Assembly (NCBI GenBank): GCA_946402335.1
Contig: CAMIWE010000002.1
Coordinates: forward strand, 30,235-94,234
DNA: 64,000 nt
Direction: 5' to 3'
Source of the DNA: an uncultured Lachnoclostridium sp.
GTDB lineage: Bacteria; Bacillota; Clostridia; Lachnospirales; Lachnospiraceae
This document shows positions 16,525 through 38,494 of this stretch, piece after piece; position 1 is the first letter of the stretch; each line of letters begins with the position of its first letter. Both the position numbers and the translations under genes were made by a program. A model generated the notes under the pieces. That model did not search any database, had not been told where the DNA came from, and was given only the letters and a program-made list of their open reading frames with translations.

Positions 16525-16540
16525 GGTTTTCTCCTCCTTC

Positions 16541-17431: not shown

Positions 17432-17432
17432 G

Positions 17433-18542
17433 TCATGCCTCCGTACCGGTTTCGTTGATGGCCTTTTCGGTTTCGAAGTCGAAGAGATGAACCTTCTTCG
17501 GCTTCAGGTTGAATCGGACGGTTTCGCCGGAGATGCCTTCCACATCTTCGGAAGGAACGATGGCACGGATGGTCGTTCCGAGAAATGCGGGATGCTCCGC
17601 AACAATGCTTGTGTCACGCCCCATAACCTCAATCTTGTTGAGCTTCGCCGTGAGGGCACCGTCTCCTGTCGGAATGAAGCCTTCGGGACGGATGCCGACG
17701 TAAACCTTCTTCGTTTCGCGGCTTTCGATATCGAGAACAGCCTCGTCGCCGATGTAAACTTTGCCGTCCTTCATTTCCCCTTCGAAGACATTGATCGGAG
17801 GCGTTCCGAGGAATTTGGCAACGAACAGGTTGTCCGGGTGATCGTATACTTCCTGGGGCTTGCCGATCTGGTGGATCACGCCTTCCTTCATCACGACGAT
17901 CATATCGCTGATGCTCATGGCCTCTTCCTGGTCATGGGTAACGAAAATGGTCGTGATGCCGGTCTCGTGCTGGATGCGTGACAGTTCCTCACGGGTCTGC
18001 AGACGGAGTCTTGCGTCAAGGTTTGAGAGAGGCTCGTCTAAAAGCAGGACGCTCGGCATCTTGACAAGGGCGCGGGCGATGGCGACACGCTGCTGCTGGC
18101 CGCCGGAGAGTTCGTTGGGTTTCCGTTCCATCAGCATGTCAATCTGCACGAGCTTGGCCGCATTGAGGGCGCGCTCATGCATCTGTTCCTTTGTGAGTTT
18201 ATCCTTGCCACGCAGATTTCCTAAAGGAAATGCGATGTTATCCTCTACGGTCAGATGCGGGTAAAGGGCATAGTTCTGGAATACAAGTCCGACGCCGCGG
18301 TTTTCGGGCGGGACGTCGGTAACGTCGTTGTCCCCGAAGAAAATCCGGCCTTCCGTCGGGGTCTCCAGTCCGCTGATCAGGTTGAGCGTCGTGCTCTTGC
18401 CGCAGCCCGAAGGACCGAGCAGGCCGATCAGTTTTCCGTCCGGAATTTCAAACGTCAGATCGCTTGCCGCGATGACATCCTCTTTAATCTTTTTGTTACG
18501 GTTCGGGAACCGTTTGGTAAGGTGTTCCAATCGAATTTTCAT
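17433..18542 (-). CDS. ABC transporter ATP-binding protein (UgpC/MsmK-type)
   Basis: GPSGCGKSTTLNLISG, LSGGQQQRVAIARAL, LLLDEPLSNLDA; RBS GGGAGG precedes ATG at 18542. Confidence 0.92.
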   Translation of the reverse strand: MKIRLEHLTKRFPNRNKKIKEDVIAASDLTFEIPDGKLIGLLGPSGCGKSTTLNLISGLETPTEGRIFFGDNDVTDVPPENRGVGLVFQNYALYPHLTVEDNIAFPLGNLRGKDKLTKEQMHERALNAAKLVQIDMLMERKPNELSGGQQQRVAIARALVKMPSVLLLDEPLSNLDARLRLQTREELSRIQHETGITTIFVTHDQEEAMSISDMIVVMKEGVIHQIGKPQEVYDHPDNLFVAKFLGTPPINVFEGEMKDGKVYIGDEAVLDIESRETKKVYVGIRPEGFIPTGDGALTAKLNKIEVMGRDTSIVAEHPAFLGTTIRAIVPSEDVEGISGETVRFNLKPKKVHLFDFETEKAINETGTEA

Positions 18543-18608
18543 AGGTGCCTCCCGGGGTGTTTTCAATTAAAAAAATTATACTGTTCCTACCGCTAAAAGT
18601 CAATTTTC

Positions 18609-18637
18609 TTGCGGGAAGGCGCCAAATGTGGTATAAT
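18609..18637 (+). promoter_or_regulatory. Candidate promoter TTGCGG-N17-TATAAT
   Basis: TTGCGG 18609-18614, TATAAT 18632-18637; upstream of 18716 gene. Confidence 0.65.
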
Positions 18638-18715
18638 AACCCATATTTTAAGCAGTTATCGAAATGCATGCGAAAGCTGCGTTTCAGGGGAACAGACAGA
18701 AGCAGGGATGAAAAG

Positions 18716-20806
18716 ATGGAAAGCAGGGAACGTGTAAATCAGGAAACGGAAGGCGGAGAGGACACCGCGAAAAGCAGCCGGAAGCGCCGCATTGTAATGA
18801 TCGGATGTATTGCCGCCGGAGGCATTGCGGTTATCGCGGCAATTATCTGGCTGGTATTTTTCCTGAGCGGAGGCAGTGAGGCCGCAAACGCAAAGCAGAA
18901 GAAGGAACTCCGGAAGGAATTCGAGCATACGATCAAGGAGTACTACGGACTTGAGAAGGGAATGTACGGCATTACCTACGGCGAAAGCTACTGGTCCGAT
19001 GTGTCGGCACCGCGGTTCGGGTTTACGTACCGGAACAAAGAGTACTGGGCCTACAAGATCGGGGATACCTGGTATTCCGATTTCTGCTGTGAGAGGTTTA
19101 TAAAGGCAATTCAGAACAATCTTACGAAAAAGGTCGGGGAGACCGACTGCTTTGACGGAAATAACGGGGTTGTCGTAAATGTCAGCGTTTCCGAAATGCG
19201 AACCTCCGTCGGAAACCGGGTGCTGATGCCGGTTGCCATTACGCCGGACGATGCGGAGAACTGCTTTGGCACTTCCGGGAAGGCGGAGTGGAAGAAGATC
19301 ATCGTATCCGCTTCGATTGATGTGTTCTTCAGCAGTTGGGACGACCGTGACACATTTGCCGCAAAAATGGCGTCCGGTTCCGATTCGCTGTATGATCGCA
19401 TGAATCTGAAGACGGCGTTGTTCTCGTTTGAGGATTTTGCGGTGCAGTGTTATGTGGGTAGTGAGGAATCCCACAATTCCGTTCCGTTTTACGACCAGCA
19501 TTACCATTTTGATCCGGTGACGAAGGAGGAATACTCCTATCATGAGAACCAGACCAGAGACCTGCACGGACTGGAGGTCGTGTATGTCGACTGGTGGTCG
19601 GATGACCAGTGGAACGTCCCGCAGAATCATTACCAGGAAGCATTCTGGGAAATGCAGAACCAGGCGATGAAGAACAACAATTACACATTTACGCGCGTGG
19701 CGAACGGCGAATGGCGGGAGACCTGGCCGGAGGAATATCTCGCCGGCGTCAGCGAGAACAATCCGATGGGGCACATTGTGACATTTGACAGCCGCTGGGT
19801 TGCTTCGCTTCTGACGACAGGCGCGTTTCTGGATGTTTCCAAGCTGCCGTCTGCGGACTGGAGCGACCGGAAATACAACCAGGCGGTTTTGGAGGTAATG
19901 TCCTATAACGGCGGTGTCTACGGCTTTGCCGCCGGAATGGAACCGAGAACGGGCGTCTTCTTTAACAAGGCACTCCTTAAGGATGCGGGGGTGGACGAGG
20001 AGTTTCCTTATGAACTGCAGGCTACCGGAAACTGGGATTTCGAGAACTTCAAGAACCTTTGCCGCAAGCTCACCCGTGATACGAACAATGACGGCGTGAC
20101 CGACGTTTACGGCGTGACCGGACAGAATACGGTATTCTTTACCGGGCTTTTGATGGCCAACGATACGTTCATCATCAAAAATGAAGACGGCAGGCTTGTC
20201 ATGAATGCGCAGGACCGTAAGGTTCTGGAGGCATTGAACTTCGGAAATTCGATTATTTCCGAAGGGTATTTCCAGCCGCAGGGTGATGCGGAATGGGATT
20301 ATTTTAAGACCGGCTTCTATGAGGGCAGGGCAGCGATGTTCGTGGAGGAGTCCTACGCCTGTGACAACATCAACGCGCAGGCACCCGACATGGAATACGG
20401 GTTCGTCAACATTCCGAAGGGACCGTCCGCGCAGGATTATGTGGCGATCTGCCGCGAGAACATTCTGGTTATACCGAACTGCGAGAAGGTTCGGGCAGTG
20501 GCGGACGACGTCGTATTTGTCTACGACATCTATACCGATGTTCCGGAGGATTATCTGGAAGACGACCAGAGATGGAAAGGAAATCTCGCCAACCGTTTCA
20601 AAGACCGCAGATCGGTTAACGAGACCTGTAACTGGATGATCAACAAGTGGGATCAGTTTATGTCCGCGCCTGACGTATACATTTCCGGATTTGCCCCGGA
20701 CTGGCTGTATGACCTCGGTAACGGAAGGTCGCCGCAGGAAACGCTCGAGGCATATTCTTCGGAATGGCAGACGCAGGTGGAGGAGTTTAACGCAAGGCTG
20801 AAATAG
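18716..20806 (+). CDS. Membrane-anchored fusion: N-terminal YYGL-family domain + ABC solute-binding-like domain
   Basis: TM IVMIGCIAAGGIAVIAAIIWLVFFL; IKEYYGLEKGMYGITYGES; later GVFFNKALLKDAGVDEEFPYELQATGNWDFENFKNLCRKLTRDTNNDGVTDVYGVTG (SBP-like). Confidence 0.75.
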   Translation: MESRERVNQETEGGEDTAKSSRKRRIVMIGCIAAGGIAVIAAIIWLVFFLSGGSEAANAKQKKELRKEFEHTIKEYYGLEKGMYGITYGESYWSDVSAPRFGFTYRNKEYWAYKIGDTWYSDFCCERFIKAIQNNLTKKVGETDCFDGNNGVVVNVSVSEMRTSVGNRVLMPVAITPDDAENCFGTSGKAEWKKIIVSASIDVFFSSWDDRDTFAAKMASGSDSLYDRMNLKTALFSFEDFAVQCYVGSEESHNSVPFYDQHYHFDPVTKEEYSYHENQTRDLHGLEVVYVDWWSDDQWNVPQNHYQEAFWEMQNQAMKNNNYTFTRVANGEWRETWPEEYLAGVSENNPMGHIVTFDSRWVASLLTTGAFLDVSKLPSADWSDRKYNQAVLEVMSYNGGVYGFAAGMEPRTGVFFNKALLKDAGVDEEFPYELQATGNWDFENFKNLCRKLTRDTNNDGVTDVYGVTGQNTVFFTGLLMANDTFIIKNEDGRLVMNAQDRKVLEALNFGNSIISEGYFQPQGDAEWDYFKTGFYEGRAAMFVEESYACDNINAQAPDMEYGFVNIPKGPSAQDYVAICRENILVIPNCEKVRAVADDVVFVYDIYTDVPEDYLEDDQRWKGNLANRFKDRRSVNETCNWMINKWDQFMSAPDVYISGFAPDWLYDLGNGRSPQETLEAYSSEWQTQVEEFNARLK

Positions 20807-20828
20807 GATCAGCATGAAGGAGGGGGCA

Positions 20829-21563
20829 ATGGGAGAAGAAAAACCAAAGAAAAGCATACTGTACAGAATTTTCCGGATATGTCTTGTGACATTCGCAGTG
20901 TTTATTTTTTCAGGGGGCGCATTGTATCTGATTCTCTCGCACATTATATCCGGCTGGACGAAGGACCGGGATAAGAAAATGGAAATGGCGCGGGAGAACC
21001 TTAAGAAGAATCTGGAGCAGTATTACGGATTGAAAGAAGGAGATTACAAGATTACCGACGAATCCTTCGGCTTAAACGGCGACTATCCGGTGTTCAAATT
21101 TGTCTCAAACGGTATATCGTACAAGGCGGCAGGAGAAGGTGACGCCATGTGCACCGACTATTATGTGAATGAAGTAATGGAACTCGTAAAGGAGAAGCTT
21201 ACGCAAACGATTGAAAGCCATGACCTGTTCGGCGGGTTGTCGTATTCCATTCAGGAGCTTGACAACAGTTTCGTCGGATGGGAAGAGCATTACCAGCGCC
21301 GGGTCACTAACAATCTGCTTCCAATGTGGATCAACCGGGAAGAGATTGACCGGTTCCGTGAAGGAAAAGCCGATAAGCAGCGCTGGAAGGAAGGCGTCCG
21401 TGTTTCCTGCGTGATATGGGTATATTCCGAGAAAGGGTTTACCCTTACCGAAGACCAGTTCAACGGGATGGCAGACGACCTGTTTTATGTGGACGTGTTC
21501 CGGATAGACGGCCCGTCGCGTTATCTGTTCCGGCCGAGATTCGGAACCATCCGGCGGGAGTGA
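20829..21563 (+). CDS. YYGL-family membrane-anchored protein
   Basis: TM then LEQYYGLKEGDYKITDESFG ... LLPMWINREEIDRFREGKADKQRW; RBS AGGAGGGGG before ATG 20829. Confidence 0.7.
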   Translation: MGEEKPKKSILYRIFRICLVTFAVFIFSGGALYLILSHIISGWTKDRDKKMEMARENLKKNLEQYYGLKEGDYKITDESFGLNGDYPVFKFVSNGISYKAAGEGDAMCTDYYVNEVMELVKEKLTQTIESHDLFGGLSYSIQELDNSFVGWEEHYQRRVTNNLLPMWINREEIDRFREGKADKQRWKEGVRVSCVIWVYSEKGFTLTEDQFNGMADDLFYVDVFRIDGPSRYLFRPRFGTIRRE

Positions 21564-21594: not shown

Positions 21595-22335
21595 ATGAAT
21601 CAGGAAACGGAACGAAACGAAGGAGCGGAACAGCAGGAAGAAAAGCAGAAACTGACCGTTAAGAGAGCCGTCCGTAACCTTTTCATCGGAATCGGCATTA
21701 CGCTTCTGGTGCTCTTTATATGCTTAGTCCTTGAGATCATGACCGAGAACAGAGAGGCCAGGAAGAACAGGGAAGCAAAGCATGAAACAATGACGGGCCT
21801 TTTCACGGAATGTATGGAAACGTACTACGGGCTGAAAAAAGGAGATTATATCATCGTTGATGAGTATTTCCGAAGGCACAGTGCCGACGTTCACGGATGT
21901 ACCTTCACTGTTGATGACACAGAGTATTCTGAAGTAAACGGTTATACGGATTATTGTTCAAAACAGTTGCGCGACGTTCTTGCGGAACAGTTCTCGGAGG
22001 CGCTGCAGGCGGCCGGTATTTCGGATGCGGGCGCTTATACGATTGAGAAGATCGAGTTTGACTATTCCGGCAAGGACACCATATTTGACGCGGAAATGAA
22101 AGACAAACTGCCGTTTTGGATGAACGAAGAGGAGATACAGAAATATAAGGACGGATCTTACAGCAGCCACAAATGGGCCGACGAGCTTACTCTCAGGATC
22201 GTAGTCCGCACGGATTCGAAAGAGGCGGCATCCTTATCGGAAGGCATTGTCAAGAAGCTGGAGTTCGGGCCGTTCTCGGATGAAGAGCTGATCATAGAAA
22301 CCGGCTCGCAGACGTATACCTATAAGATCCGGTAA
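21595..22335 (+). CDS. YYGL-family membrane-anchored protein
   Basis: TM then METYYGLKKGDYIIVDEYF ... LPFWMNEEEIQKYKDGSYSSHKW. Confidence 0.7.
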   Translation: MNQETERNEGAEQQEEKQKLTVKRAVRNLFIGIGITLLVLFICLVLEIMTENREARKNREAKHETMTGLFTECMETYYGLKKGDYIIVDEYFRRHSADVHGCTFTVDDTEYSEVNGYTDYCSKQLRDVLAEQFSEALQAAGISDAGAYTIEKIEFDYSGKDTIFDAEMKDKLPFWMNEEEIQKYKDGSYSSHKWADELTLRIVVRTDSKEAASLSEGIVKKLEFGPFSDEELIIETGSQTYTYKIR

Positions 22336-22352: not shown

Positions 22353-23108
22353 ATGAAGAAAGAGAAAGGGAAGACGGGGAGAACCCGTTATATCGTTCAA
22401 CTCGTATTGTTCGTCATCGGGGTTTTGTGCGTGAGTGTGGGCCTTACCTGGTTTATCTATTGGGCGGCAAAGCATTCGCCGAAGCCGCTGACGATAAAGT
22501 TTGACTGGCTGAAAGGGAATGGTTCCGCAAGAAATGAAGCGGAAAGAGAACTGCTTGCACAACTGAAGGAGTATCACGGCCTGGAACCGGGCGACTGCAA
22601 GATCGTGGCCGGAGAGCCCGGGTTACTCGAAACGGCCGACGATACGCCGTATTATCTGCAAGTGAACGGCAAGCAGTACAATCTCGGACGCTATAAGAAT
22701 CAGATAACCGGGAAAGTTTACTGGACAAGCGATTACTATTCGGATTTGTTTGAAACAAAGGCCCGGCAGTACATCCGGCAGGTGATTGATGAAGTCGATC
22801 CAGAGATTAAAAATGCGGTCACGTCAGGGCAGTCCAATCTGCTTCCGATCTGGATGAACAACGATGAAACCGTTGCGCTTCTTAACGGAAAGATTGAGCG
22901 ATCCAAATGGAGACTGGCGGTCGCCAGGACCGGGAGCTTCATCGGAACCGTAACCATTCGAAGCGATAAGGACCTGACCCTCAGCGAGGAGCAGCTTGCG
23001 ATTCTTACGGACAAGCTTTTCTTCGTTAACGCAATCGTAATCTACTGCCCGAGGGAGACCATCCGGTACGAGCCATACTCCGGAAAGCTTTATACGACAT
23101 CAAAATAG
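22353..23108 (+). CDS. YYGL-family membrane-anchored protein
   Basis: TM then LKEYHGLEPGDCKIVAGEPG ... LLPIWMNNDETVALLNGKIERSKW. Confidence 0.7.
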   Translation: MKKEKGKTGRTRYIVQLVLFVIGVLCVSVGLTWFIYWAAKHSPKPLTIKFDWLKGNGSARNEAERELLAQLKEYHGLEPGDCKIVAGEPGLLETADDTPYYLQVNGKQYNLGRYKNQITGKVYWTSDYYSDLFETKARQYIRQVIDEVDPEIKNAVTSGQSNLLPIWMNNDETVALLNGKIERSKWRLAVARTGSFIGTVTIRSDKDLTLSEEQLAILTDKLFFVNAIVIYCPRETIRYEPYSGKLYTTSK

Positions 23109-23552: not shown

Positions 23553-26500
23553 ATGCATATCAGAAGGTTTAAAAGCATGCTCAGTATGCTTCTGTGCGTC
23601 TTCATGATGGGGTCTCTTTTACAGGCAAAAGAGGCTTCAGCAGCCAGATGTTATGACCACAGTAAAACGAAAGTGGTTATCGCCAGTCCGGCGACCTGTG
23701 GAAAAAACGGGTCAAGAGAATACCGTTGTGTGAATTGCAATTATCTTGTTAGATCAGAGACCATTTACGCAACCGGTAATCATAGCTGGGGCACTTGGAC
23801 GACGACCAAAGATGCGACCTGCACGATTGGTGGATCGAAAAAACGCTCTTGTACCACCTGTGGCAAGACCGAAAACGGCAATATTGATCCGCTTGGGCAT
23901 AATTCTGATAAAACAGAGTATACTCCGCCTACTTGCGGAAGTGATGGATACACGATTAAGAAGTGTTCAAGATGTCAGAATGTAATGAGCAGAACTGTAC
24001 ACAGTGCGACCGGCAATCACAGCTGGGGAAGCTGGGTTACGGTAAAGTCTCCTAATTGTACGGAAGGCGGAACAAGAAAGCATACGTGTAACACTTGCGG
24101 AGCGACTGCTTCGGAGAACATGGCTGCTTGGGGACACAATTCAAATGGAACCAAGACAGTACCAGCCACCTGTGGGAAGGACGGCTATACTGCGAAGACC
24201 TGTACAAATTGCGGGATCATTATGAGCAGCACTCCGATTAAGGCAACCGGAAAGCATAGCTGGGGGTCTTGGGTTGATGTTAAATCTGCAAATTGTACGG
24301 AAGGCGGAACACGGAAGCATACCTGTAATACATGTGGAGCAACTGCTTCTGAAAATGTAGCAGCTCTTGGACATGATACGAAAGGCGGAACGAAAACCGT
24401 TGCGGCTACATGTACTGCTGCCGGTTATTCCGTAGCGACCTGTTCCAGATGTAAGAGAGAGCAGGGCAATAAGACGACGATCCCGGCACTCGGACATAGC
24501 TGGGGGTCATGGATTGATGTTAAGGCGGCAAACTGTACGGAAGGCGGTACGAGAAAGCATACCTGTAACCGTTGCGGAACTACGGCTTCTGAGAATGTTG
24601 CGGCACTCGGACATGACTCGAAGGGCGGAACGAAAACCGTTGCGGCCACCTGTACTGCCGCCGGCTATACCGTAGCGACCTGCTCCAGATGTAAGAGAGA
24701 GCAGGGCAATAAGACGACGATCCCGGCACTCGGACATAGCTGGGGGTCATGGATTGATGTTAAGGCGGCAAACTGTACTGAGGGCGGGACAAGAAAGCAT
24801 ACCTGTAACCGTTGCGGAGCAACGGCTTCCGAGAATGTAGCGGCACTCGGTCATGACTCGAAAGGCGGAACGAAAACAGTTCCGGCATCATGCGGAACCG
24901 ACGGCTATACCGTAGCAACCTGTTCCAAATGTAAGCGTGAGCAGGGAAACAGAACCACAATCCCGGCAACCGGAAAGCATTCCTGGAGCAAATGGAATAA
25001 CGATATTGATCCGTCCTGTGAGGGGGCAGGATCCAAGTCGCGTGTATGTTCCACCTGTGGAAAAAAAGAAAACGATAAGATTAATCCGCTTGGTCATCTG
25101 GTCGAGGGCCAGGTGAAGAGAGAAGAAGCGACCTGTGGCAAAGACGGATACAGTGTCGTAGTTTGTACACGATGCGGCAAGGAACAAGGCAGCAGAAATA
25201 CGATCAAGGCGACCGGAAAGCATAGTTGGGGCTCTTGGACGGTTGAGATAGAACCGGCATGTGAAATGCAGGGAACCAGATCACGAGTATGCACAACCTG
25301 CGGTACCCCTGAAAAAGATAAGATAGGTGAACTGGGCCATTCCTTCCAGGGACAGATCAAGAGAGAAGAGGCAACCTGTGGCAAAGACGGATACAGCGTT
25401 GTAGTATGCTCCCGTTGCGGTAAAGAAGGCGGGAACAGAAATACGATTCCGGCGACAGGAAAACATTCCTGGGGCTCCTGGACGATTGAGATAGAGCCGG
25501 CATGTGAAATGAAGGGGACCAAATCACGGGCATGCCCGGTTTGTGGCGATATTGACAGAGTCCAAATAGGCGAACTCGGACATTTGGTGCAGGGGCAGAT
25601 TAAAAGAGAAGAAGCCACCTGTGGTAAGGATGGATATACAGCCGTGGTTTGTTCAAGATGCGGTGAAGCGGTTGGAGCAAAAAATGTTATTCCCGCAACC
25701 GGCAAGCATACCTGGGACAGCTGGACCGATGATAAGGATGCCACGTGTACTATAAACGGCACGAGACATCACACATGTACGACATGCGGCAAATCCGAAG
25801 ACGGTATAATAAAAGCCCCGGGCCATTTAATCACGGGACAGATGCGAACGGTAGAGCCGACTTGTTCTAAAGCTGGCTATAATGTTGTTATTTGTTCCCG
25901 CTGTGGTCAGGAATTCGGGAGTCAGAGTACTATTCCGGCAACCGGTAATCATAACTGGGGAGTCTGGATTGAGGATAAAAAGCCGACTTGTGAGCAGAGT
26001 GGAACAAGACATCATGTATGTAAGGATTGCGGACATTCTGCCGGTGATACCACCGCACCATTGAGACACCTGGTTGAGGGGCAGATCAGACGGAAAGCTC
26101 CAACCTGCGACAAGGATGGATACAGCGTGATGGTTTGTTCCCGATGCGGGGCAGAGGTTGGAAAGCGGACGATCCTTCCGAAGACCGGGCATAATCTGGG
26201 ACCGGTACAAAAGATTGTTTCAGAGAATTGTGAGAGAGATGGCTGGGGATACCGTTATTGTACGGATGATAACTGTCAGTACAAAGAAAAAGTCACGATT
26301 ACGAAAAAAACGCATTCTCCGATAACATTCAGAGAAGAACCGACTTGTGATAAAGAAGGTAAGCAGGGAGTCAAGTGCCAATACTGTGGTGAAATCCTCG
26401 GCAACTCCTCAACTATAGCTAAGAAAGGACACCAGTTTGGCGATTGGATACTGTACCCGTCGGTTTCTACGGATAAAGAACTGGTATCTTTCCGTTATTG

Positions 26501-29500
26501 TACCGTGTGTGATGCATACGAAAAGAAAGTCGAACCGAATACTTCGGAAGTTCCGATATATTATCTTCATTTTGACCCGAATGGCGGAACCGGTCGGATG
26601 GATGACTATATTTTCATCGGGAATCTGACCAATCTTCCGACTTCGACATTTAAGAAAACCGGCTACTATTTCTCGGCATGGTGTACTGCTCCTGACAGTT
26701 TGGCGGGACGGGTTTATACGATCCCATCGACATTTAAACGAACTGATGCACCGGCAACGTTGTATGCTTTATGGTCTGCAAATGAATACACAATTGAGTA
26801 CAATCTGAACTATGCAGACGCTAAAAAGATAGGTGACGATGTTGTTTCCTATGATGAAACCGTGACTCTTCCGAAACCGAAACGCGACGGATATGATTTT
26901 GTTGCGTGGAGGGGAGCGGCGGATGGAAAACAGCTTTATCTGTCGGGCGGACAGGAAGTAAAGAATCTCACTGAACATAATGGTGTGACGGTTATACTTA
27001 GGGCAGAGTGGGTAAAGACAGAAGGATTCTGTGAGGTTTCTTTCTATGACGGAAATACGTTTATCAAGTCTACAAGCGTGGAACCCGGAGACAAGGTAAA
27101 AACGTTCAAGTATAGCAAAAACAATACAGCCTGCATTGGATGGAGCACCACGCCCGGCGGACCCGTTGTATATCAGGCCGGAAAGAAATATGAATTTAAA
27201 GAAGACACCAAATTATACGCCGTTTGGAAAGAATACACCATAACATATGATGCTAACGGAGGCGAATTTACTCCGAATGCAGTGACCGTGAAGGATGGTT
27301 CTGCTACAACAATATATGATAAAACGCTCGACAGACCGGGATATCATTTTGGCGGGTGGTCATATAGTAAGGAGAATCAGGAACTGAACTTCATACCGGG
27401 AGCGCCGTATTCGGATGGGGTTAGTATCACTTTGTATGCAATTTGGGACCCGATTGAATATACCATTAAGCTGAACCCGAATTATTACGGAGCAAAAACG
27501 ACCACGATCAAGGTTTCGTATGATTATGTGTACTATCTTCCTGCTCCCCAGCGAACCGGATATGAGTTCTGCGGATGGAAGGGAGCTTCTGACGGTAAAC
27601 AGCTCACCTTTTCTGCGAATGCACCGGTAAGTAAGCTTACGGTTAATGAGGGAACCACGGTGACGCTTACCGGAAGCTGGCAGAAAAAAAGCGATTTTGT
27701 TGAGGTGAAATTCTATAACGGAAATCAACAGGTGGATTTCACTACAAAGAAAAAAGATAAGGCCATCAAAATGCCTTCGTATTATTGGGCGGAGACCGGG
27801 AATTTCTGTTGCGGTTGGAACACTGCGAAAGACGGAACAGGCAAAACCTATGCGGTTGGGGAAAACGTTTATTTTACGGAAAACGTATCATTATATGCGG
27901 TTTGGGGCTCTTATACAGTTACATATGATGCCAATGGCGGAAGCGGAGCTCCGAATCCGCAGACTGTTTCTCGCACCCAAACAGTAACCATCTCCGGCGC
28001 CGGAAGTATCAGAAGAGATGGATACAAATTCGATGGCTGGGCATATCAGAAGTATGATACCGAAAGCTATTATAATGGCGGTGAGACATATAAGGAAGGT
28101 GTTTCCATAACGCTGTATGCAGTTTGGATTCCGATACAATACACGATTAAAGTGAATCCGGGATTCTTCAATGCTAAAATCACTACAATCAAGGTACCAT
28201 ATGATTATGTATATTATCCGGTGGTACCGGACCGGCTTGGGTATGATTTCTGCGGATGGAAGGGTGCTTCTGACGGAAAGCAGTTCTCCTTCTCGAAAAA
28301 TGAACCGGTAAGTAAACTCACAATTCACGAAAACACTACTGTCATTTTAAATGGAACATGGAAAAAAAGCAGTGAGTACGTTACCGTGAATTATTATGAC
28401 GGAAACACAAAGGTTAACTCAACGACCGTCCTTCGCGGAACGACGCTGGTGCTGCCGTCTCATTTTAGAAGTACAACGGCCATGTATTGCAGCGGGTGGT
28501 GTAAATCCGCTAATAAGACCGGGACAAAATATAAAGTAGGCGATTTGTTTGTGCTTACGGAAGATACGGATTTGTATGCAACATGGGATACTTATACGAT
28601 TTCGTACAATGGTAACGGCGGAACCGGCGCTCCGTTTATGCAAACCTATTCGTGCTCTGAAACTGCAACGATTCTGTCAACAAAACTTGACCGAACCGGG
28701 TACAGATTTAACGGATGGGCTTTTGATAAGGAGGCTAAGGAGCCTGATTTTGTCGGCGGAGCTCCTTATTCCGAAGGAGTATCGATTACGCTGTATGCGG
28801 TTTGGGTACCGCATGAGTATACCCTTAGATTTAATTCGAATTATCAGGATGCGGATCCGATCAGTGATGTAACAGGTCTGTATGATTATACGATTTATAT
28901 TCCCGAAGCGCAGCGGACGGGATATGTATTTGACGGATGGAAGGGCTATTACAAGGGACATCTTATTACCCTTAAGGGAGGCGAGCTGACTAAGAATGTG
29001 ACGGCCGACGATGGCGTTGTCATCCCACTGACCGCACAATGGAAGAGAGACGAGAACTATTGTAAGGTAACATTTTACAGTGGGGACAAAGAAGTTCGCA
29101 CTAAAATGGTGAAAAAGGGCAAAAAGGTGACACTGTCCGGATATCTGTCTCCTGAGACGACGACCTACAATAAGGGTTGGAGTATTACAAAGAACGGTGT
29201 TACAGAGTCATATAAAAACAATGATAGGGTTACAATCTATGAAGACACGGCAGTAGTGGCTGAGTGGAATAAGTTTACGATCATTTTCGATCCGCATGGT
29301 GATAATGTTACCGGAATGCCTGGAAATATTACTACAACAGCGGATAAAGCGGTAAAACTACCGGATGAATCCGAGTCCCCGCAAAGAAGCGGCTATGTGT
29401 TTGCCGGCTGGGGATTTATCACAAATCAAGGAGACTATGTTTTTGCGTATAAACCCGGTGAAGTATATGATTCCGGAGTAACCGTTACAATGTATGCGAT

Positions 29501-30236
29501 GTGGGATGAGATTATTATCAGCCCGATAAAGGATGAGCTGCAGAAACTCTATTCCAAGGCACTCATGCCGGACAGTTATTTCGATCAGGATTACATGTCG
29601 CCTTATTGGCAGAAGATCAGTGACGATTGCTATTTCCTCATCAAAACCGATACCTCGAATCCATCTTATATCACGGAGGCCTTTATCGTGTATAAAGAAA
29701 ATTACACGATTAAAGTAAAGGATTATACCTATGGCGACGGAATAATGGATTGTATCGAAAAGGGAATCCTTGAGAACCATGATAACACTCTCGGAGCGAT
29801 TGAAGTGTTTTCATTGAATATCGGCATTGAAGTTGCTAAGACGGTATTTGCCAATTCTAATCCAATGGGAACCATCATTGTGTATGGATACGACAGTTAT
29901 TGCCTGATTAAGGACTGGATTGAAGCAGGAGTGGATGATAAGTTGTTCAGTAGCGTTACCTATGTTGGGGCAAATGGATTGGATCATGCCGCTGAGTATA
30001 TTTTTGAGTTTAAATGCCTTGAAAAAGTTGAAGTAGGATTAATATTCTCAGCGATTCTGGAAGGAGTCAAAACAGTTTATTATACCAAAAAAGCGGAGGA
30101 GTTAAATCTTGATCCGTTAGGTAATCGTGATACTGCATTATATACACTTGCTCAGAGTATTAAGGATGCAGGATTTGGCCCTGAGATTTATGATTCGGGA
30201 TTGAGAGATGTTGTCCTGTCGATTTATTTTCACTGA
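23553..30236 (+). CDS. Giant secreted protein (2227 aa): Cys/His repeat array + InlB-type repeats + shared C-terminal domain
   Basis: Signal peptide; about 23 CxxC motifs in ~40-aa units (TC..GGT.KHTCNTCG.......LGH); YDANGG...GW.Y..LYAVW repeats; C-term LQKLYSKALMPDSYFDQDYMSPYWQKISDDCYFLIKTD. Confidence 0.9.
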   Translation: MHIRRFKSMLSMLLCVFMMGSLLQAKEASAARCYDHSKTKVVIASPATCGKNGSREYRCVNCNYLVRSETIYATGNHSWGTWTTTKDATCTIGGSKKRSCTTCGKTENGNIDPLGHNSDKTEYTPPTCGSDGYTIKKCSRCQNVMSRTVHSATGNHSWGSWVTVKSPNCTEGGTRKHTCNTCGATASENMAAWGHNSNGTKTVPATCGKDGYTAKTCTNCGIIMSSTPIKATGKHSWGSWVDVKSANCTEGGTRKHTCNTCGATASENVAALGHDTKGGTKTVAATCTAAGYSVATCSRCKREQGNKTTIPALGHSWGSWIDVKAANCTEGGTRKHTCNRCGTTASENVAALGHDSKGGTKTVAATCTAAGYTVATCSRCKREQGNKTTIPALGHSWGSWIDVKAANCTEGGTRKHTCNRCGATASENVAALGHDSKGGTKTVPASCGTDGYTVATCSKCKREQGNRTTIPATGKHSWSKWNNDIDPSCEGAGSKSRVCSTCGKKENDKINPLGHLVEGQVKREEATCGKDGYSVVVCTRCGKEQGSRNTIKATGKHSWGSWTVEIEPACEMQGTRSRVCTTCGTPEKDKIGELGHSFQGQIKREEATCGKDGYSVVVCSRCGKEGGNRNTIPATGKHSWGSWTIEIEPACEMKGTKSRACPVCGDIDRVQIGELGHLVQGQIKREEATCGKDGYTAVVCSRCGEAVGAKNVIPATGKHTWDSWTDDKDATCTINGTRHHTCTTCGKSEDGIIKAPGHLITGQMRTVEPTCSKAGYNVVICSRCGQEFGSQSTIPATGNHNWGVWIEDKKPTCEQSGTRHHVCKDCGHSAGDTTAPLRHLVEGQIRRKAPTCDKDGYSVMVCSRCGAEVGKRTILPKTGHNLGPVQKIVSENCERDGWGYRYCTDDNCQYKEKVTITKKTHSPITFREEPTCDKEGKQGVKCQYCGEILGNSSTIAKKGHQFGDWILYPSVSTDKELVSFRYCTVCDAYEKKVEPNTSEVPIYYLHFDPNGGTGRMDDYIFIGNLTNLPTSTFKKTGYYFSAWCTAPDSLAGRVYTIPSTFKRTDAPATLYALWSANEYTIEYNLNYADAKKIGDDVVSYDETVTLPKPKRDGYDFVAWRGAADGKQLYLSGGQEVKNLTEHNGVTVILRAEWVKTEGFCEVSFYDGNTFIKSTSVEPGDKVKTFKYSKNNTACIGWSTTPGGPVVYQAGKKYEFKEDTKLYAVWKEYTITYDANGGEFTPNAVTVKDGSATTIYDKTLDRPGYHFGGWSYSKENQELNFIPGAPYSDGVSITLYAIWDPIEYTIKLNPNYYGAKTTTIKVSYDYVYYLPAPQRTGYEFCGWKGASDGKQLTFSANAPVSKLTVNEGTTVTLTGSWQKKSDFVEVKFYNGNQQVDFTTKKKDKAIKMPSYYWAETGNFCCGWNTAKDGTGKTYAVGENVYFTENVSLYAVWGSYTVTYDANGGSGAPNPQTVSRTQTVTISGAGSIRRDGYKFDGWAYQKYDTESYYNGGETYKEGVSITLYAVWIPIQYTIKVNPGFFNAKITTIKVPYDYVYYPVVPDRLGYDFCGWKGASDGKQFSFSKNEPVSKLTIHENTTVILNGTWKKSSEYVTVNYYDGNTKVNSTTVLRGTTLVLPSHFRSTTAMYCSGWCKSANKTGTKYKVGDLFVLTEDTDLYATWDTYTISYNGNGGTGAPFMQTYSCSETATILSTKLDRTGYRFNGWAFDKEAKEPDFVGGAPYSEGVSITLYAVWVPHEYTLRFNSNYQDADPISDVTGLYDYTIYIPEAQRTGYVFDGWKGYYKGHLITLKGGELTKNVTADDGVVIPLTAQWKRDENYCKVTFYSGDKEVRTKMVKKGKKVTLSGYLSPETTTYNKGWSITKNGVTESYKNNDRVTIYEDTAVVAEWNKFTIIFDPHGDNVTGMPGNITTTADKAVKLPDESESPQRSGYVFAGWGFITNQGDYVFAYKPGEVYDSGVTVTMYAMWDEIIISPIKDELQKLYSKALMPDSYFDQDYMSPYWQKISDDCYFLIKTDTSNPSYITEAFIVYKENYTIKVKDYTYGDGIMDCIEKGILENHDNTLGAIEVFSLNIGIEVAKTVFANSNPMGTIIVYGYDSYCLIKDWIEAGVDDKLFSSVTYVGANGLDHAAEYIFEFKCLEKVEVGLIFSAILEGVKTVYYTKKAEELNLDPLGNRDTALYTLAQSIKDAGFGPEIYDSGLRDVVLSIYFH
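24241..24960 (+). repeat. Near-identical 240-bp coding direct repeats (3 consecutive copies)
   Basis: tcccggcactcggacatagctgggggtcatggattgatgttaaggcggcaaactgtac at 24481 and again at 24721, exactly 240 bp apart; related copy at 24241. Confidence 0.9.
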
Positions 30237-30643: not shown

Positions 30644-33457
30644 ATGGAAGATAAGAAGATGTGTTTCGCAAAATTCGGAAGAACCGTTCTGTTCCTTGCC
30701 GGACTGATCGCGACAGTCGGGCTGTCGGTATTGTTCAATTCCGCACAGGCCGGTGTCTGTAATCATGATGACAAGAAAGTGAAGGTCACCAAATCACCGA
30801 CTTGCGGATCTACCGGTATGCGGGAACTGTATTGTAGCAAATGCGATAAGTTTATCCGAAGAGAAACCATCCCGGCCACGGGCAACCATGTTTACGGCGA
30901 CTGGAAGACCGTTCAGAACGCCAACTGTACGAACGGCGGCGTGAAAAGGCGTTATTGTAAGAACTGCAGCGCATACGAATCCAAGAATATCAGCCCCTGG
31001 GGGCATAATTCGAACGGCACCAAGACGGTCAATCCGACCTGTACGGAGGACGGATATACAGCTAAAACCTGCACGAACTGCGGTGCCATCATGAGCAGAA
31101 CCGTAAAGACCAAACTGGGTCATGACTGGGGCGAATGGGAGACGAAGACAAAGCCGACCTGCCAGAAGACCGGCCAGAGGTACCATTCCTGCAAACGCTG
31201 CGGTGCGGGAGCAACCGAAACGATGGATAAGGTTTCGCATGACACGAAGGGCGGAACCAAGACCGTAAAGGAAACCTGCGCCAAGGACGGATATTCTGTG
31301 GCGACTTGTTCCATGTGCCATGCGGAGCAGGGCAGCAGAACCGTGATCAAGGCCAATGGGAACCACACATGGGGCTCATGGATTGTCAATAAGAACCCGA
31401 CCTGCAAGGAGTACGGCAGCAGACATCACATCTGTGAAGTATGCGGAATAACCGTATCCGAGAATACGGCGCCTATAGCGCATGATACAAAGGGAGCAGT
31501 CAAAACCGTTGCTGCTACCTGTGTTAAGGACGGATATACTGTGGCGACCTGTTCCATGTGCCACACGGAGCAGGGAAGCAAGACCGTAATTCCGGCTACC
31601 GGCAACCATACCTGGGGCAAATGGACCGAAGTTCAGCCTGCATACTGCAAGAAGACCGGCACGAAACAGCGTGCCTGTGAAGTGTGCGGAAAGACCGAGT
31701 CCGGCATAATTGACGCGCTCGAGCACGACGTTCAGGGACAGAAGAAGACTGTCCCTGCTACCTGTGTCAGCGAGGGCTATGAGGTCGTGATATGTTCCCG
31801 CTGCCATGAAGAAATGCAGGGGCGAACAATTATTCCTAAAAACAATAACCATGACTGGGGCGCCTGGGAAGTTAAAACCGCAAACACCTGTGAAGAGGAC
31901 GGACTTCAGTCGCGGGTTTGTAAACTGTGCGGAAAGAATGAAGAGGAGAGACTTCCGAAACTCGGACATGACGGACAGGGACAGGTAGTTACGGTTCCCG
32001 CCACCTGTGTAAACGATGGTTATCAGGTGACGAAGTGTTCCCGTTGCGGCGCGCATCTTGGTGAGCCGCTTGTTCTTCCGGCCAATGGCAATCATTCATA
32101 TGACGAATGGGTTGTCATCAGTCCCTTAACGTGTGAAACAGACGGATATAAGTTCCGTGTATGTAAGGTTTGCGGTCACTGTGATGAAGTGGCAGAACGC
32201 AAGACCGGGCATCTGTTCGAAGGCCAGATACGGTTAAAGAACGGACGTTATGTCGTAGTCTGCACAAACTGCGGCAAGGAAGGCAGCGAGATCAAATTTG
32301 ACCGGGCCAATAATAAAACGGGAACAACCCCGGGAAGCGTAGCAAACCAGAAGGAAATGCGCGTTGATGGAACGGCATATTATAAGAATAAAGTTAACAC
32401 GGATTCAGATCTTAATTTATGGCGGAGAGATGACCAGTCATTTGTCTGGAAGTGCGACAGGTTAAGCCAGTCGGCGGTATTCCAGGTAGAAGGATATCAG
32501 GGACATTTGCATTACAATGTTATCGGCAACACAAAAGCCGGGACCAACTGGGTAATGGTAAGCATTAAAGAAAAAAGTGACAATACGGCTACTGTAACCA
32601 TTTCAGTTGCTGCGAACAATACTGCAGAATCCAGGGAGGCCCAGGTACGTGTCTTTGATGATTGGGGATTCGGTTTTATTGTAAGTATCAATCAGTTTCC
32701 CAATGGGGATAAATCTATAGAGGATCAAATGGGCGACGCTTCCTCTCTGGTTGTTGATAAGGATGCGACGCTGATCATTGATCCGAGTTCCATGAACATT
32801 TCTTCGGATGAATTTGTCGGGGAAGTCAAGATTCTGAATGCTACGGGAACAACCATTCTGGTTGATTATGAGGACGGAACGAAAGACTGGATAACGGTTA
32901 AGAGAGTCTGGGACGATGCAGAGAACCGCTTTACCCATGCTTTTACGATTTCGGTTAAGAAGAATACCAAGTTTTTCAGATACGGTAAGATCCGCTTTAC
33001 CGATACGACTACCGGCCAATACGGCTGGCTGGTGATTAACCAGGACCCGGATCCGAATATGGAAAAGGAAAAGCCGAAGCCGGTGGAGGACAAGGGATTC
33101 CGGATCGGCTCCTGCGATGCTGCTATAGGGTTCGAAGACGATACCGCTGAATATGAGGGGAAACGTGCGGTATTCCGAAGAATCATCGTTCCCACCGATG
33201 GCGGCGTGGTAAAAGTGCGGATAGAAGGAGACGTTCAGGGAGAACTTCATTGGGATGTTGTAAGTGGCGATAAGGATTTAGTACACATAGAGCGTGACGG
33301 TAATTGCATTATTATTACTGTCAAACCAGACCCGAACCCGGGAAACGGTCACGGAGTTGGAGTAGTTATTCGCGATGACGCGGGCAATTCGGTCGGCGTT
33401 GGCATTGTTGTGGAGCCAAATATGGGTCAACCCCAAAAGACGAAACCAAACACGTGA
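30644..33457 (+). CDS. Large secreted protein: Cys/His repeat array + BACON-like C-terminal domains
   Basis: Signal peptide FAKFGRTVLFLAGLIATVGLSVLFNSAQAG; about 13 CxxC motifs; LHYNVIGNTKAGTNWVMVSIKE...VTISVAANNTAESREAQVRVFDDWG.GFIVSINQ. Confidence 0.88.
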   Translation: MEDKKMCFAKFGRTVLFLAGLIATVGLSVLFNSAQAGVCNHDDKKVKVTKSPTCGSTGMRELYCSKCDKFIRRETIPATGNHVYGDWKTVQNANCTNGGVKRRYCKNCSAYESKNISPWGHNSNGTKTVNPTCTEDGYTAKTCTNCGAIMSRTVKTKLGHDWGEWETKTKPTCQKTGQRYHSCKRCGAGATETMDKVSHDTKGGTKTVKETCAKDGYSVATCSMCHAEQGSRTVIKANGNHTWGSWIVNKNPTCKEYGSRHHICEVCGITVSENTAPIAHDTKGAVKTVAATCVKDGYTVATCSMCHTEQGSKTVIPATGNHTWGKWTEVQPAYCKKTGTKQRACEVCGKTESGIIDALEHDVQGQKKTVPATCVSEGYEVVICSRCHEEMQGRTIIPKNNNHDWGAWEVKTANTCEEDGLQSRVCKLCGKNEEERLPKLGHDGQGQVVTVPATCVNDGYQVTKCSRCGAHLGEPLVLPANGNHSYDEWVVISPLTCETDGYKFRVCKVCGHCDEVAERKTGHLFEGQIRLKNGRYVVVCTNCGKEGSEIKFDRANNKTGTTPGSVANQKEMRVDGTAYYKNKVNTDSDLNLWRRDDQSFVWKCDRLSQSAVFQVEGYQGHLHYNVIGNTKAGTNWVMVSIKEKSDNTATVTISVAANNTAESREAQVRVFDDWGFGFIVSINQFPNGDKSIEDQMGDASSLVVDKDATLIIDPSSMNISSDEFVGEVKILNATGTTILVDYEDGTKDWITVKRVWDDAENRFTHAFTISVKKNTKFFRYGKIRFTDTTTGQYGWLVINQDPDPNMEKEKPKPVEDKGFRIGSCDAAIGFEDDTAEYEGKRAVFRRIIVPTDGGVVKVRIEGDVQGELHWDVVSGDKDLVHIERDGNCIIITVKPDPNPGNGHGVGVVIRDDAGNSVGVGIVVEPNMGQPQKTKPNT

Positions 33458-33531: not shown

Positions 33532-36500
33532 ATGAAAGAAAAAAAGAAGCATTTTGTAAAACTTGGTCGAGCGATTCTTCTCCTTGCCGGACTTGCTGTG
33601 ACAGTTGGGTTATCAGTAGGATTGAATTCCGCAAAGGCCAGTAAATCATCCCCACATTACAGCCATGATGACGATGACGTAAGAGTGACCAAGCGGCCGA
33701 CTTGCGGGTCTACAGGCATGCGGGAATACTATTGCAGCCAATGCGGTAAACTTATCCGAAGAGAAACTATCAAAGCCACCGGAAACCATGTTTACGGGGA
33801 TTGGACTACCGTTAAGAGTGCCAACTGTACCGATGGCGGAGTACAGAGGCGGTATTGTAAGAACTGCGATGACTATGAATCGCGGAACATCAGTCCCTGG
33901 GGGCATAATTCCAACGGTTCGAAGACCGTTGATCCGACCTGTACGGAGGACGGTTATACCGTGAAAACCTGTACGAACTGCGGAGCGATCATGAGCAGAA
34001 CCGTGCATTCTCAGCTTGGTCATAGCTGGGGAGGATGGGTTACCGACAGTAATCCAACCTGTCAGAAGACCGGTCAGAGACACCATACCTGCACGCGTTG
34101 CGGTATGGGAGCTTCCGAAGTTTTAGGAAAGCTTAATCATAATACGAGCGGCGGTACGAAAACCGTACGGGCGACCTGTACTGCAGACGGTTATTCTGTA
34201 GCAACCTGTTCCATGTGCAAAGCGGAATCGGGAAGCAGGACTGTAATTAAGGCGACCGGTCACAGCATGAGCAGCTGGGTAGTTGACAGCAGCCCGACCT
34301 GTCAGAAAACCGGCCAGAGACATCGTACCTGCGGAAACTGCACCTATGCGGAATCGGAAGTAATGGCAAAACTCAGCCACGATACGAAAGGCGCAACCAA
34401 AACCGTAAAAGCGACCTGTACGACGGACGGATATTCCGTGGCAACCTGCTCCATGTGTAAGACGGAATCCGGAAGCAGGACCGCCATTAAGGCGACCGGC
34501 CACAGCATGAGTGGCTGGACCATCGACAGCAAGCCGTCCTGTCAGAAGACCGGTCAGAGACATCGCACCTGCGCAAACTGTAACTATGCGGAATCGGAAG
34601 TGATGGAAAAAGTCAGCCACGATACGAAAGGTGCCACGAAAACCGTAAAAGCAACCTGTACAACGAACGGTTATTCTGTGGCGACCTGCTCCATGTGTAA
34701 GGCGGAATCGGGAAGCAAGACCGTTATTAAGGCAACAGGTCACAGCATGAGCGGTTGGACCATCGACAGCAAGCCGTCCTGTCAGAAGACCGGCCAGAGA
34801 CATCGTACCTGCGCAAACTGTAACTATGCAGAATCAGAGGTCATGTCAAAGGTGAACCACGACCAGCAGGGGGGAACCAAAACCGTCAACGCCACCTGCG
34901 GCAAGGACGGTTACACCGTAGCAACCTGTTCCATGTGTAAGGCGGAATCGGGAAGCAAGACCGTTATTAAGGCGACCGGCAGACACACATTTGGCTCATG
35001 GGTTGTCGTTAAGAACCCGACCTGTACGGAATATGGCAGCAGATACCATACCTGTAGCGTGTGCGGATATAACGCTTCCGACAATATGAATCCTATTGAG
35101 CATGATCAGAAGGGCGGAACCAAAACCGTCAACCCCACATGTGGTAAGGATGGATATACCGTAGCCACCTGCTCCATGTGCCACGGCGAGCAGGGAAGCA
35201 AGTCCGTCATTCCTGCAACCGGAAATCATACCTGGGGCAAATGGAATGAAACCAAGCCCGCATCCTGCAAGAAGACCGGCACGAAACAGCGTGCCTGTGA
35301 AGTATGCGGCAAGACCGAGTCCGGCACGATTGATGAACTGGGCCACCTTGTTCAGGGGCAGAAGAAGACCGTCCCGGCAACCTGTATCAGTGACGGTTAT
35401 GTGGTAATCGTATGTTCCCGGTGCAATGAGGAAATGGAAGGAAGACAAACCCTTCCCAAGACCAATAATCATGACTGGGGCGCCTGGGAAGTTAAGACCG
35501 AGAATACCTGTGAAAAGGATGGAATCCGGCTGCACGTATGCAAAGTGTGCGGAAAGAATGTGGCAGAGAAAATCCCGAAACTCGGACACAGCGTACAGGG
35601 CCAGATTGTCAGGGTTCCGGCCACCTGCGTTAACAACGGATATCAGGTAACGAAGTGTTCCCGTTGCGGCGTGGAACTCGGCGAGCGAAGAGTACTTCCG
35701 GCTACCGGTGTTCACACATATGGCGACTGGATTATCGACAAGAACGTAACCTGTGAAACCGACGGATATAAACATCGCGTATGTTCCGTATGCGGTAGTG
35801 TTGAAGAGAAAGTGGACCGTAAGACCGGGCATCTGTTCGAAGGTCAGATTCGCTTGATTAACGGACGATATGTCGTAGTTTGCACAAACTGCGGTAAGGA
35901 AGGCAGTGAAATCACATTTGACAGAAGAACCCCTACGCCGGTGCCGGGGCAGGGAAGCGGAACGAGCCAGAACTTCGAGGTCTGGACGATAAAGGTTCCG
36001 ACAACAAAGGACTGGTACGATTATTTGGGTGCTTTTTTGGGCTTTTGGCAACTAAGCGAGCGTGAGTTTTTGTGGAAAACTGACCATAATAGCGGTAGCG
36101 TGACGTTAGGTGTCACTGGATATCAGGGACAGCTTCACTACAATGTTGTCGGAAATACGAAAGCCGGATCTGATTGGGTTACGGTTAATATTCTTCAAGA
36201 CGATAAAAATAATACTTCTGTTTCAATCGGTGTAAGCTGGAACGGTTCAAATCAGACCCGTTCTGCTCATGTAATCATTTTTGATGATTGGGGAAATAGT
36301 TTTGTTGTTGAAATTGAACAGCATTTCGATGCGCTTTCACTGGCAGCCGGTATAGATTCAGGTACGCAAAACGTTCCGTCAGTAGTTGTTGCAGATCAGG
36401 ATACGGAACTAATAATTGATCCTGACTATATGTCTATCTCTTCGGACGAATTTGTCGGAGAAGTTAAAGTGCTGAATGCTTCCGGAGCGGTGATCCTGGT

Positions 36501-37203
36501 TGAATATGAGGGTAATACGAAAGACTGGATAACGATTAAGAGAGTCTGGAACGCCGATACGAATAGTTTTTCCAATGCCTTTACCGTTACGGTGAAAAAG
36601 AATCAATACTATTCCGGACGAACGGGAAGTATTAAATTCACAGATCCCACTTCCGGCAAATATGGCTGGTTGTCGATTAATCAGGACTATGCTCCGAATC
36701 CGTACACGAAGGTGCCTGAGCCTTATGTGCTTTTTGATGTCAGCGGTATAGAAGTTACAAACGGGGAAGCGTATGAATATGACCATCCGGCGGATTATGG
36801 TTACATTTTTATCAAAGGCTGCGGAGAATTAGTAATTGATATTGACGAAGAAATAGAAGGAGAACTTCATTGGATTATTGACGGAGATATTCCGGAAGAT
36901 ATGATACAAATTTACTATAATGATGATAAAATCATTATTGAAGTGTTGGGCAATGCCGGATTGATTGCGGCCGGTGCAAATATCTACTTGTATGATGATA
37001 ATAACCGGTGCGTCTCTGTCTATGTTATGGTTGGGGACGGTATGCTTGATGAAGTGGTTGAAAACATCCCCGGCGATGCTATTACCGGCGCAGGGGCCGG
37101 GAATGGCGGCATAGATCAAATCGTGAAAAACGGCTTTCGGGATGCTGCATCAAAGGTCGATAAGTCTACAAAAGACGCCATCGAAAACGTAAGACCGAAA
37201 TAA
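33532..37203 (+). CDS. Large secreted protein (1223 aa), paralog of preceding gene: Cys/His repeat array + BACON-like domains
   Basis: Near-identical signal peptide; about 19 CxxC motifs; LHYNVVGNTKAGSDWVTVNILQ... ; no promoter/riboswitch of its own seen, 74 bp from upstream stop. Confidence 0.88.
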   Translation: MKEKKKHFVKLGRAILLLAGLAVTVGLSVGLNSAKASKSSPHYSHDDDDVRVTKRPTCGSTGMREYYCSQCGKLIRRETIKATGNHVYGDWTTVKSANCTDGGVQRRYCKNCDDYESRNISPWGHNSNGSKTVDPTCTEDGYTVKTCTNCGAIMSRTVHSQLGHSWGGWVTDSNPTCQKTGQRHHTCTRCGMGASEVLGKLNHNTSGGTKTVRATCTADGYSVATCSMCKAESGSRTVIKATGHSMSSWVVDSSPTCQKTGQRHRTCGNCTYAESEVMAKLSHDTKGATKTVKATCTTDGYSVATCSMCKTESGSRTAIKATGHSMSGWTIDSKPSCQKTGQRHRTCANCNYAESEVMEKVSHDTKGATKTVKATCTTNGYSVATCSMCKAESGSKTVIKATGHSMSGWTIDSKPSCQKTGQRHRTCANCNYAESEVMSKVNHDQQGGTKTVNATCGKDGYTVATCSMCKAESGSKTVIKATGRHTFGSWVVVKNPTCTEYGSRYHTCSVCGYNASDNMNPIEHDQKGGTKTVNPTCGKDGYTVATCSMCHGEQGSKSVIPATGNHTWGKWNETKPASCKKTGTKQRACEVCGKTESGTIDELGHLVQGQKKTVPATCISDGYVVIVCSRCNEEMEGRQTLPKTNNHDWGAWEVKTENTCEKDGIRLHVCKVCGKNVAEKIPKLGHSVQGQIVRVPATCVNNGYQVTKCSRCGVELGERRVLPATGVHTYGDWIIDKNVTCETDGYKHRVCSVCGSVEEKVDRKTGHLFEGQIRLINGRYVVVCTNCGKEGSEITFDRRTPTPVPGQGSGTSQNFEVWTIKVPTTKDWYDYLGAFLGFWQLSEREFLWKTDHNSGSVTLGVTGYQGQLHYNVVGNTKAGSDWVTVNILQDDKNNTSVSIGVSWNGSNQTRSAHVIIFDDWGNSFVVEIEQHFDALSLAAGIDSGTQNVPSVVVADQDTELIIDPDYMSISSDEFVGEVKVLNASGAVILVEYEGNTKDWITIKRVWNADTNSFSNAFTVTVKKNQYYSGRTGSIKFTDPTSGKYGWLSINQDYAPNPYTKVPEPYVLFDVSGIEVTNGEAYEYDHPADYGYIFIKGCGELVIDIDEEIEGELHWIIDGDIPEDMIQIYYNDDKIIIEVLGNAGLIAAGANIYLYDDNNRCVSVYVMVGDGMLDEVVENIPGDAITGAGAGNGGIDQIVKNGFRDAASKVDKSTKDAIENVRPK
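34261..34980 (+). repeat. Near-identical 240-bp coding direct repeats (3 copies)
   Basis: cacagcatgagcggttggaccatcgacagcaagccgtcctgtcagaagaccgg at 34501 and 34741, related at 34261. Confidence 0.9.
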
Positions 37204-37281: not shown

Positions 37282-37401
37282 ATGCGTCATGGCTATGAGT
37301 ATAAGCAAAGAGATGTTGAATTGTACCGATCAGTTCAAGCTTGGTTGCGGGGGATTATGCCATATGATATAATAGTCGGAAAGAAGGGGGCTTGGATATG
37401 A
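37282..37401 (+). pseudogene. Possible remnant of an IS3-type orfA transposase N-terminus
   Basis: MRHGYEYKQRDVELYRSVQAW resembles the YEFK..CVELYRQGKW start of some IS3-like transposases; only ~20 similar residues. Confidence 0.35.
37345..37373 (+). promoter_or_regulatory. Candidate promoter TTGCGG-N17-TATAAT
   Basis: TTGCGG 37345-37350, TATAAT 37368-37373, upstream of 37398 gene. Confidence 0.65.
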
Positions 37402-38452: not shown

Positions 38453-38477
38453 GTGTATTATTGCAGCCGATTTTTTG
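38441..38477 (+). terminator. Riboswitch-3 expression platform terminator
   Basis: GGTTGCAATAAggtgTATTATTGCAGCCGATTTTTT. Confidence 0.85.
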
Positions 38478-38494
38478 TTTTTCGGAGGGACGTG

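Follow-up and report, generated by a model that had tools for sequence, protein, structure and literature searches.

Exported Cys/His repeat arrays in an uncultured Lachnoclostridium with predicted metal sites between neighbouring units

The array proteins

The window, a 64,000 nt stretch of DNA from an uncultured Lachnoclostridium sp. (assembly GCA_946402335.1, contig CAMIWE010000002.1, positions 30,235–94,234), encodes three proteins with arrays of a Cys/His-rich repeat (Table 1). The three open reading frames are present as given in a first-pass annotation made from the sequence alone. Each protein displays, by eye, a Sec-type signal sequence at its N-terminal end, and the array starts directly after it. 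According to Pfam, 12 Listeria-Bacteroides (InlB B-type) repeats come after the array in protein 1, and BACON-like domains after those in proteins 2 and 3. Neither a sortase motif nor an established adhesive domain was seen in the three proteins. The arrays are also crossed by open reading frames on the antisense strand, which are regarded as a side effect of the repeat composition.

The stretch singled out in the first-pass annotation, positions 23553–26500, is a real array, but it covers the array of the first protein only. The CxxC counts given there, 23, 13 and 19, are correct for the first and third proteins, however a recount for protein 2 gives 14. This is due to an overlap, CKVCGHC, which adds one motif.

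Table 1. Positions of the array proteins and their parts in the window (nt positions; aa numbering within each protein)
Feature	Position	Strand	Description
Protein 1	23553..30236	+	2227 aa; signal peptide, 24-unit Cys/His array, 12 Listeria-Bacteroides (InlB B-type) repeats, C-terminal domain
Array of protein 1	23643..26510	+	aa 31–986; 24 CxxC units, 24 complete predicted inter-unit ligand sets; Cys used 72/72
N-cap, array 1	23649..23660	+	C33-x-x-H36; would stand in for the ligand from a preceding unit's C1
Last unit, array 1	26430..26510	+	H960 and C983/C986 present; without its own C1
Listeria-Bacteroides repeats, protein 1	~26553..29507	+	PF09479, 12 stretches; span approximate
Protein 2	30644..33457	+	937 aa; signal peptide, 13-unit array, BACON-like domains
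Array of protein 2	30752..32272	+	aa 37–543; 13 CxxC units; 39/40 Cys assigned, C513 spare
N-cap, array 2	30758..30766	+	C39-x-H41
Last unit, array 2	32210..32272	+	His at aa 523 (in register with protein 3) and C540/C543; without C1
Protein 3	33532..37203	+	1223 aa; signal peptide, 19-unit array, BACON-like domains
Array of protein 3	33655..35892	+	aa 42–787; 19 CxxC units; 56/56 Cys assigned
N-cap, array 3	33655..33666	+	H42-x-x-H45; His replaces Cys
Last unit, array 3	35830..35892	+	H767 and C784/C787; without C1; hairpin shortened

Neighbouring genes

A YYGLxxGDYxI-like motif recurs in five proteins near the arrays that are probably anchored in the membrane (positions 18545–20806, 20814–21563, 21595–22335, 22353–23108 and 37392–38183). 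The first of these carries a fused solute-binding domain; Pfam gives no match for the remaining four. Positions 38453–44917 encode an exported protein of 2154 aa that combines six BACON domains with Listeria-Bacteroides repeats and has PT-rich linkers (TPTPTK); in its C-terminal part it is similar to the corresponding part of protein 1. A 295 aa protein at positions 10363–11247 shows a weak match to XendoU, a eukaryotic-type endoribonuclease, which is below the cut-off (E-value = 0.003).

The repeat unit

The exported units of approximately 40 residues with strictly spaced Cys and His, described in the first-pass annotation, are confirmed and number 24, 13 and 19 in the three proteins. The exact spacing C-x9-C-x2-C is found in 52 units over the three proteins; the first Cys is termed C1 here, and the other two form the CxxC. 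A Gly is located four residues past C1 in all 52 of these units and a His 13 residues ahead of C1 in 47 of them. Cys is kept at 156 of the 156 positions although its codons vary (TGT 105, TGC 85, the three proteins pooled). Some neighbouring repeats are 86%–87% identical in DNA and others only 52%–57%, with Cys constant throughout. The Cys density is 7.4%–7.8% inside the arrays versus 0.5%–1.2% elsewhere in the same proteins.

Two unit types alternate in the arrays and give an 80 aa double repeat, thus the DNA repeat is about 240 bp. The invariant positions of the double repeat are H1, W6, C14, G18, C24, C27, H40, C53, G57, Y58, C63 and C66. A degenerate DNA pattern for the unit has 8 matches in the window versus none in 100 shuffles.

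Relatives of the unit

Searches of Pfam and NCBIfam with whole proteins and with single units gave nothing above the curated cut-offs for the unit. The earlier statement that the unit belongs to no established family is therefore correct as regards family models, but the unit corresponds to the ZBD1/ZBD2 subdomain of the Thomasclavelia ramosa IgAse. A profile of the unit displays one clear relative among PDB sequences, this IgAse (9qa6_A, E-value = 2.4e-8), and an independent homologue agrees (E-value = 4.4e-8). Both of the IgAse terminal units that can be aligned lack C1. A literature search for a named repeat found the IgAse paper (PMC12237041) as sole match. DUF7835, L32p, CHY and UBZ, with weak, scattered matches below cut-off, were rejected as the family of the unit, as were GH16 and PNGase as relatives (phmmer matches at chance level). 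The PF18885 profile has no match in the genome that contains the window.

According to the IgAse paper (Ramirez-Larrota et al. 2025; PMC12237041), ZBD1 and ZBD2 are predicted to bind zinc and to form three-stranded up-down sheets, with predicted metal sites at the subdomain interfaces, mostly 2H2C and one 3C1H. ZBD1 would be about 110 Å long, and the fold is called possibly novel, "pending experimental validation". The paper gives the cryo-EM model as S32–N876, i.e. it ends ahead of ZBD1 and ZBD2.

Position of the predicted site

The first-pass annotation had proposed a C...CxxC...H site inside one unit. This appears to be the wrong register, as both end-of-array statistics and predicted topology (below) place the site between two units. 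In all likelihood the site spans each joint of the array and would consist of C1 of unit n with the His and CxxC of unit n+1, a Cys3His set.

With ligands shared between units in this manner, 56 of the 56 CxxC units in the window have all four ligands, and 167 of the 168 array Cys are assigned. The competing possibility is an intra-unit zinc finger, where each unit binds a metal by its own C1, CxxC and His and the units are independent beads. Internal units do hold a C...CxxC together with a His, and 53 of 56 units would have a full set; three orphan CxxC and the cap Cys are left unexplained. The two arrangements part at the array ends. If the site lies between units, the first unit needs a substitute for C1 and the last unit needs no C1. 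All three last units of the window arrays are without C1, yet have the His and the CxxC.

Array ends in a wider sample

Arrays were collected from the same genome and its relatives, from bacterial genomes and from contigs labelled viral, i.e. 105 loci plus the window. An HMM of the unit was built and units were chained, which gave 133 arrays with 1324 units. Units were thinned for redundancy before the statistics, which removes relatedness only in part.

In the strict set, last units have the His in 51 of 52 cases and the CxxC also in 51 of 52, but C1 in only 10 of 52. Internal units have the His in 571, the CxxC in 572 and C1 in 563 of 584. The loss of C1 in last versus internal units is highly significant (p = 3e-40), and that of His and CxxC is not (p = 1 for both). 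Last and penultimate units paired within arrays differ in C1 by 66:3 (p = 2e-16). At the opposite end, a [C/H]-x(1-3)-H cap is present in 59 of 98 first units versus 40 of 848 internal units (p = 1e-40), and the comparison of first with second units within arrays gives 51:1 (p = 2e-14). The cap residue is Cys in 33 cases and His in 20. Inside arrays, a unit without C1 is followed by a unit with a cap in 27 of 136 pairs, versus 22 of 1003 for other pairs (p = 6e-14). There are exceptions: C1 is present in the 10 last units mentioned, and about 40% of first units have no cap by the simple rule.

The retrieval pattern demanded one C1-bearing unit per locus; when pattern-matching units are left out, C1 is still present in 753 of 872 internal units. 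The HMM was trained on C1-bearing units, thus units without C1 are harder, not easier, to detect.

Two loci of the sample show unusual layouts. Locus L112 (− strand) has arrays in series; a short C1-less unit and then a C-x-H cap link them, which looks like an end-to-end fusion of capped rods. Locus L050, positions 800–5398 (− strand), has a variant array with a C1-to-CxxC spacing of 6 rather than 10 and a period of about 28 aa, e.g. GHNWNRTAATCTEAKVCTRC.

Predicted structure

AlphaFold2 was run on the N-cap plus units of protein 1 with an alignment of 22 rows, all of them repeats from the window. The model has a pLDDT of 91.4 and a pTM of 0.54, and a model of a C-terminal array end has a pLDDT of 89.7. 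By their strand lists, both models display a three-stranded up-down antiparallel sheet per unit. The strands of unit 1 are at positions 9–15, 23–29 and 35–41, and the pattern recurs in the next unit. C1 (position 19) lies in the first turn and the CxxC (positions 29/32) in the second. No solved fold in the PDB matches the predicted unit in Foldseek (E ≤ 0.001); at this threshold the fold is matched by two predicted proteins with a phage label.

An AlphaFold check had been proposed in the first-pass annotation. It gives a confident fold (pLDDT 91) but puts C1 and CxxC of one unit at opposite ends of strand 2. Since strand 2 separates them, one unit should not supply both to a tetrahedral site. 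Strand 3 runs back to the C1 end, where the His and CxxC of the next unit are located, and this points to a site made of C1(n), His(n+1) and CxxC(n+1); the topology is taken from the strand list, not from distances.

The intra-unit finger is thus very improbable. Apart from the topology, last units drop C1 selectively while CxxC and His stay, and first units gain an extra ligand for which such a finger has no need.

Metal or disulfide

The metal site suggested in the first-pass annotation agrees with the strict Cys/His spacing, the ligand rules and the exchange of Cys and His at the cap; metal binding itself is a prediction. Three Cys and one His per site, the Cys/His exchange, and a His that is conserved equally point to metal rather than disulfide. 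Zinc is the natural metal for a Cys3His ligand set. Given a metal, it is very probably zinc; iron or another metal may be present in the sites.

A disulfide ladder or a redox scaffold based on CxxC thiols had been offered as the alternative. CxxC belongs to the redox motifs, Cys residues outside the cell are frequently oxidised, and the Cys count is high. However three Cys per site would leave one unpaired, and in a disulfide neither the replacement of Cys by His at the cap nor the conservation of His, as strong as that of Cys, is expected. VKOR, DsbB and Thioredoxin_4 (DsbA-like) were not found in any of 21 genomes of the genus, while the control genomes gave matches; the genome containing the window is 86% complete. 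No haem-copper oxidase was found above the cut-off. Absence of these export-disulfide families and of the terminal oxidase from the search results fits an anaerobe in which exported thiols can stay reduced. In addition no disulfides are reported for the IgAse, which has 24 Cys (PMC12237041). The disulfide or redox alternative is therefore disfavoured and has a very low probability, similar to that of the intra-unit finger.

Distribution

The unit is present on six further contigs of the same genome. It is found in 31 of 61 nearest-relative genomes, the source genome included, and, phylum-wide, in 15 of 399 genomes (E ≤ 1e-5). A scan of about 85,000 species with the DNA pattern shows at least 65 array-bearing loci among the matches listed; among these matches the array loci mostly bear titles of Clostridia, Oscillospiraceae or Lachnospiraceae, with few others. 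Elsewhere the arrays accompany SLH, BspA-type LRR, Big, Flg_new and CBM26 domains. Arrays are also carried by 22 loci on contigs labelled viral (L178–L244), which may be prophage cargo or mislabelled host DNA.

Proposed structure and role

The arrays probably form metal-stapled stalks on surface proteins, with inter-unit sites that most likely hold zinc and without disulfides. In the proposed model, each unit of about 40 residues would be a small three-stranded up-down-up beta sheet, with C1 in the turn that links strand 1 to strand 2 and the CxxC at the opposite end, in the turn that links strand 2 to strand 3. The chain would enter the next unit with the His at the C1 end, so that the joint n/n+1 gathers C1(n), His(n+1) and both Cys of CxxC(n+1) in a tetrahedral Cys3His site, most likely of Zn(II). 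A Cys or His just ahead of the His of the first unit would cap the N-terminal end, and the last unit would be without C1 because no unit follows. The result would be a rod with one metal staple for each unit, i.e. 56 predicted metals (24, 13 and 19). A rod of 24 units would be about 90 nm long if straight, an extrapolation from the IgAse model (110 Å per three subdomains; PMC12237041).

Such a rod may project or stiffen the downstream modules, i.e. the InlB B-type repeats and BACON domains, with metal joints that would replace, in an anaerobe, the disulfides or calcium of other extracellular repeat proteins. The domain company somewhat favours the stalk as the main role.

Two other roles were considered. 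The arrays could be a metal store or scavenger, which takes up zinc (or iron, copper) for nutrition or detoxification and not for structure. Twenty-four predicted sites in one exported protein amount to a large metal load, and an ABC locus with a solute-binding protein is close by (positions 14042–18566). However the nearby solute-binding proteins are of the general SBP_bac_1/8 families, none of them zinc-specific, the predicted sites require two folded neighbours and caps, which is a structural design, and the array proteins also contain fused stalk and adhesion domains. A store or scavenger is accordingly improbable. Alternatively, the arrays could be ligand-binding modules (for mucin, glycan or a polymer) where the metal site only folds the unit, a role compatible with the inter-unit metal site. 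By annotation, the BACON domains that accompany the arrays are putative binding domains, and Trp and Tyr are conserved in the units; packing accounts equally well for the aromatic positions, however, and no carbohydrate-binding family matches the unit. This role is considered unlikely, though less so than a metal store.

If the stapled-stalk model is true, anaerobic surface proteins build stiff stalks without disulfides or calcium, and there is an explanation for a Cys/His repeat that is frequent in gut Clostridia and has no name. The model yields a domain description with explicit cap rules, predicts a stoichiometry of one zinc per CxxC unit, and offers a modular zinc-jointed scaffold for protein design. 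More tentatively, metal-stapled rods of this kind could be a previously unrecognised class of extracellular structures that is widespread in anaerobic Clostridia. Each repeat would give one Cys to the zinc site of the next, the N- and C-terminal caps would be defined, rod length would grow in step with the number of metals, and changes in zinc supply, e.g. zinc withholding by the host, could affect stiffness.

Comparison with known systems

Fibrillar adhesins with stalk domains (PMC9210967, PMC8286594) resemble the array proteins in being long exported repeat proteins with stalk-like arrays. The window proteins have the length and the repeats of a long repetitive exported stalk, and their extended shape is predicted. 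Flg_new serves as a stalk domain in fibrillar adhesins (PMC9210967, PMC8286594), however zinc is absent from the main texts of both papers. The Listeria-Bacteroides repeat (PF09479), found after the array in protein 1 and in other array proteins, is a separate domain and not the Cys/His unit.

Zinc ribbons (Zn_Ribbon_1, DZR, Ribosomal_L32p) also have CxxC knuckles and gave sub-threshold matches to single units (best about 0.005). Unlike zinc ribbons, where the ligands lie within one domain, the array units are predicted to receive the fourth ligand from the previous repeat.

The closest system is the IgAse. Its ZBDs (PMC12237041) share with the arrays a homologous unit, up-down three-stranded sheets, predicted interface sites, export and a gut bacterial host, and their terminal subdomains are without C1. 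They have 2–3 subdomains per domain and mostly 2His2Cys sites, whereas the window arrays have 13–24 units and nearly all 3Cys1His sites (predicted in both). The IgAse is an enzyme, whereas the window proteins are non-enzymes with adhesion-type domains. An end-cap rule is not stated in the passages of PMC12237041 consulted. Judged from sequence, the IgAse type of ligand sharing between neighbouring subdomains would apply to the window arrays, and the array model in turn predicts the build of the unsolved zinc-binding domains of this IgA-cleaving enzyme. The unit appears to merit a named domain family.
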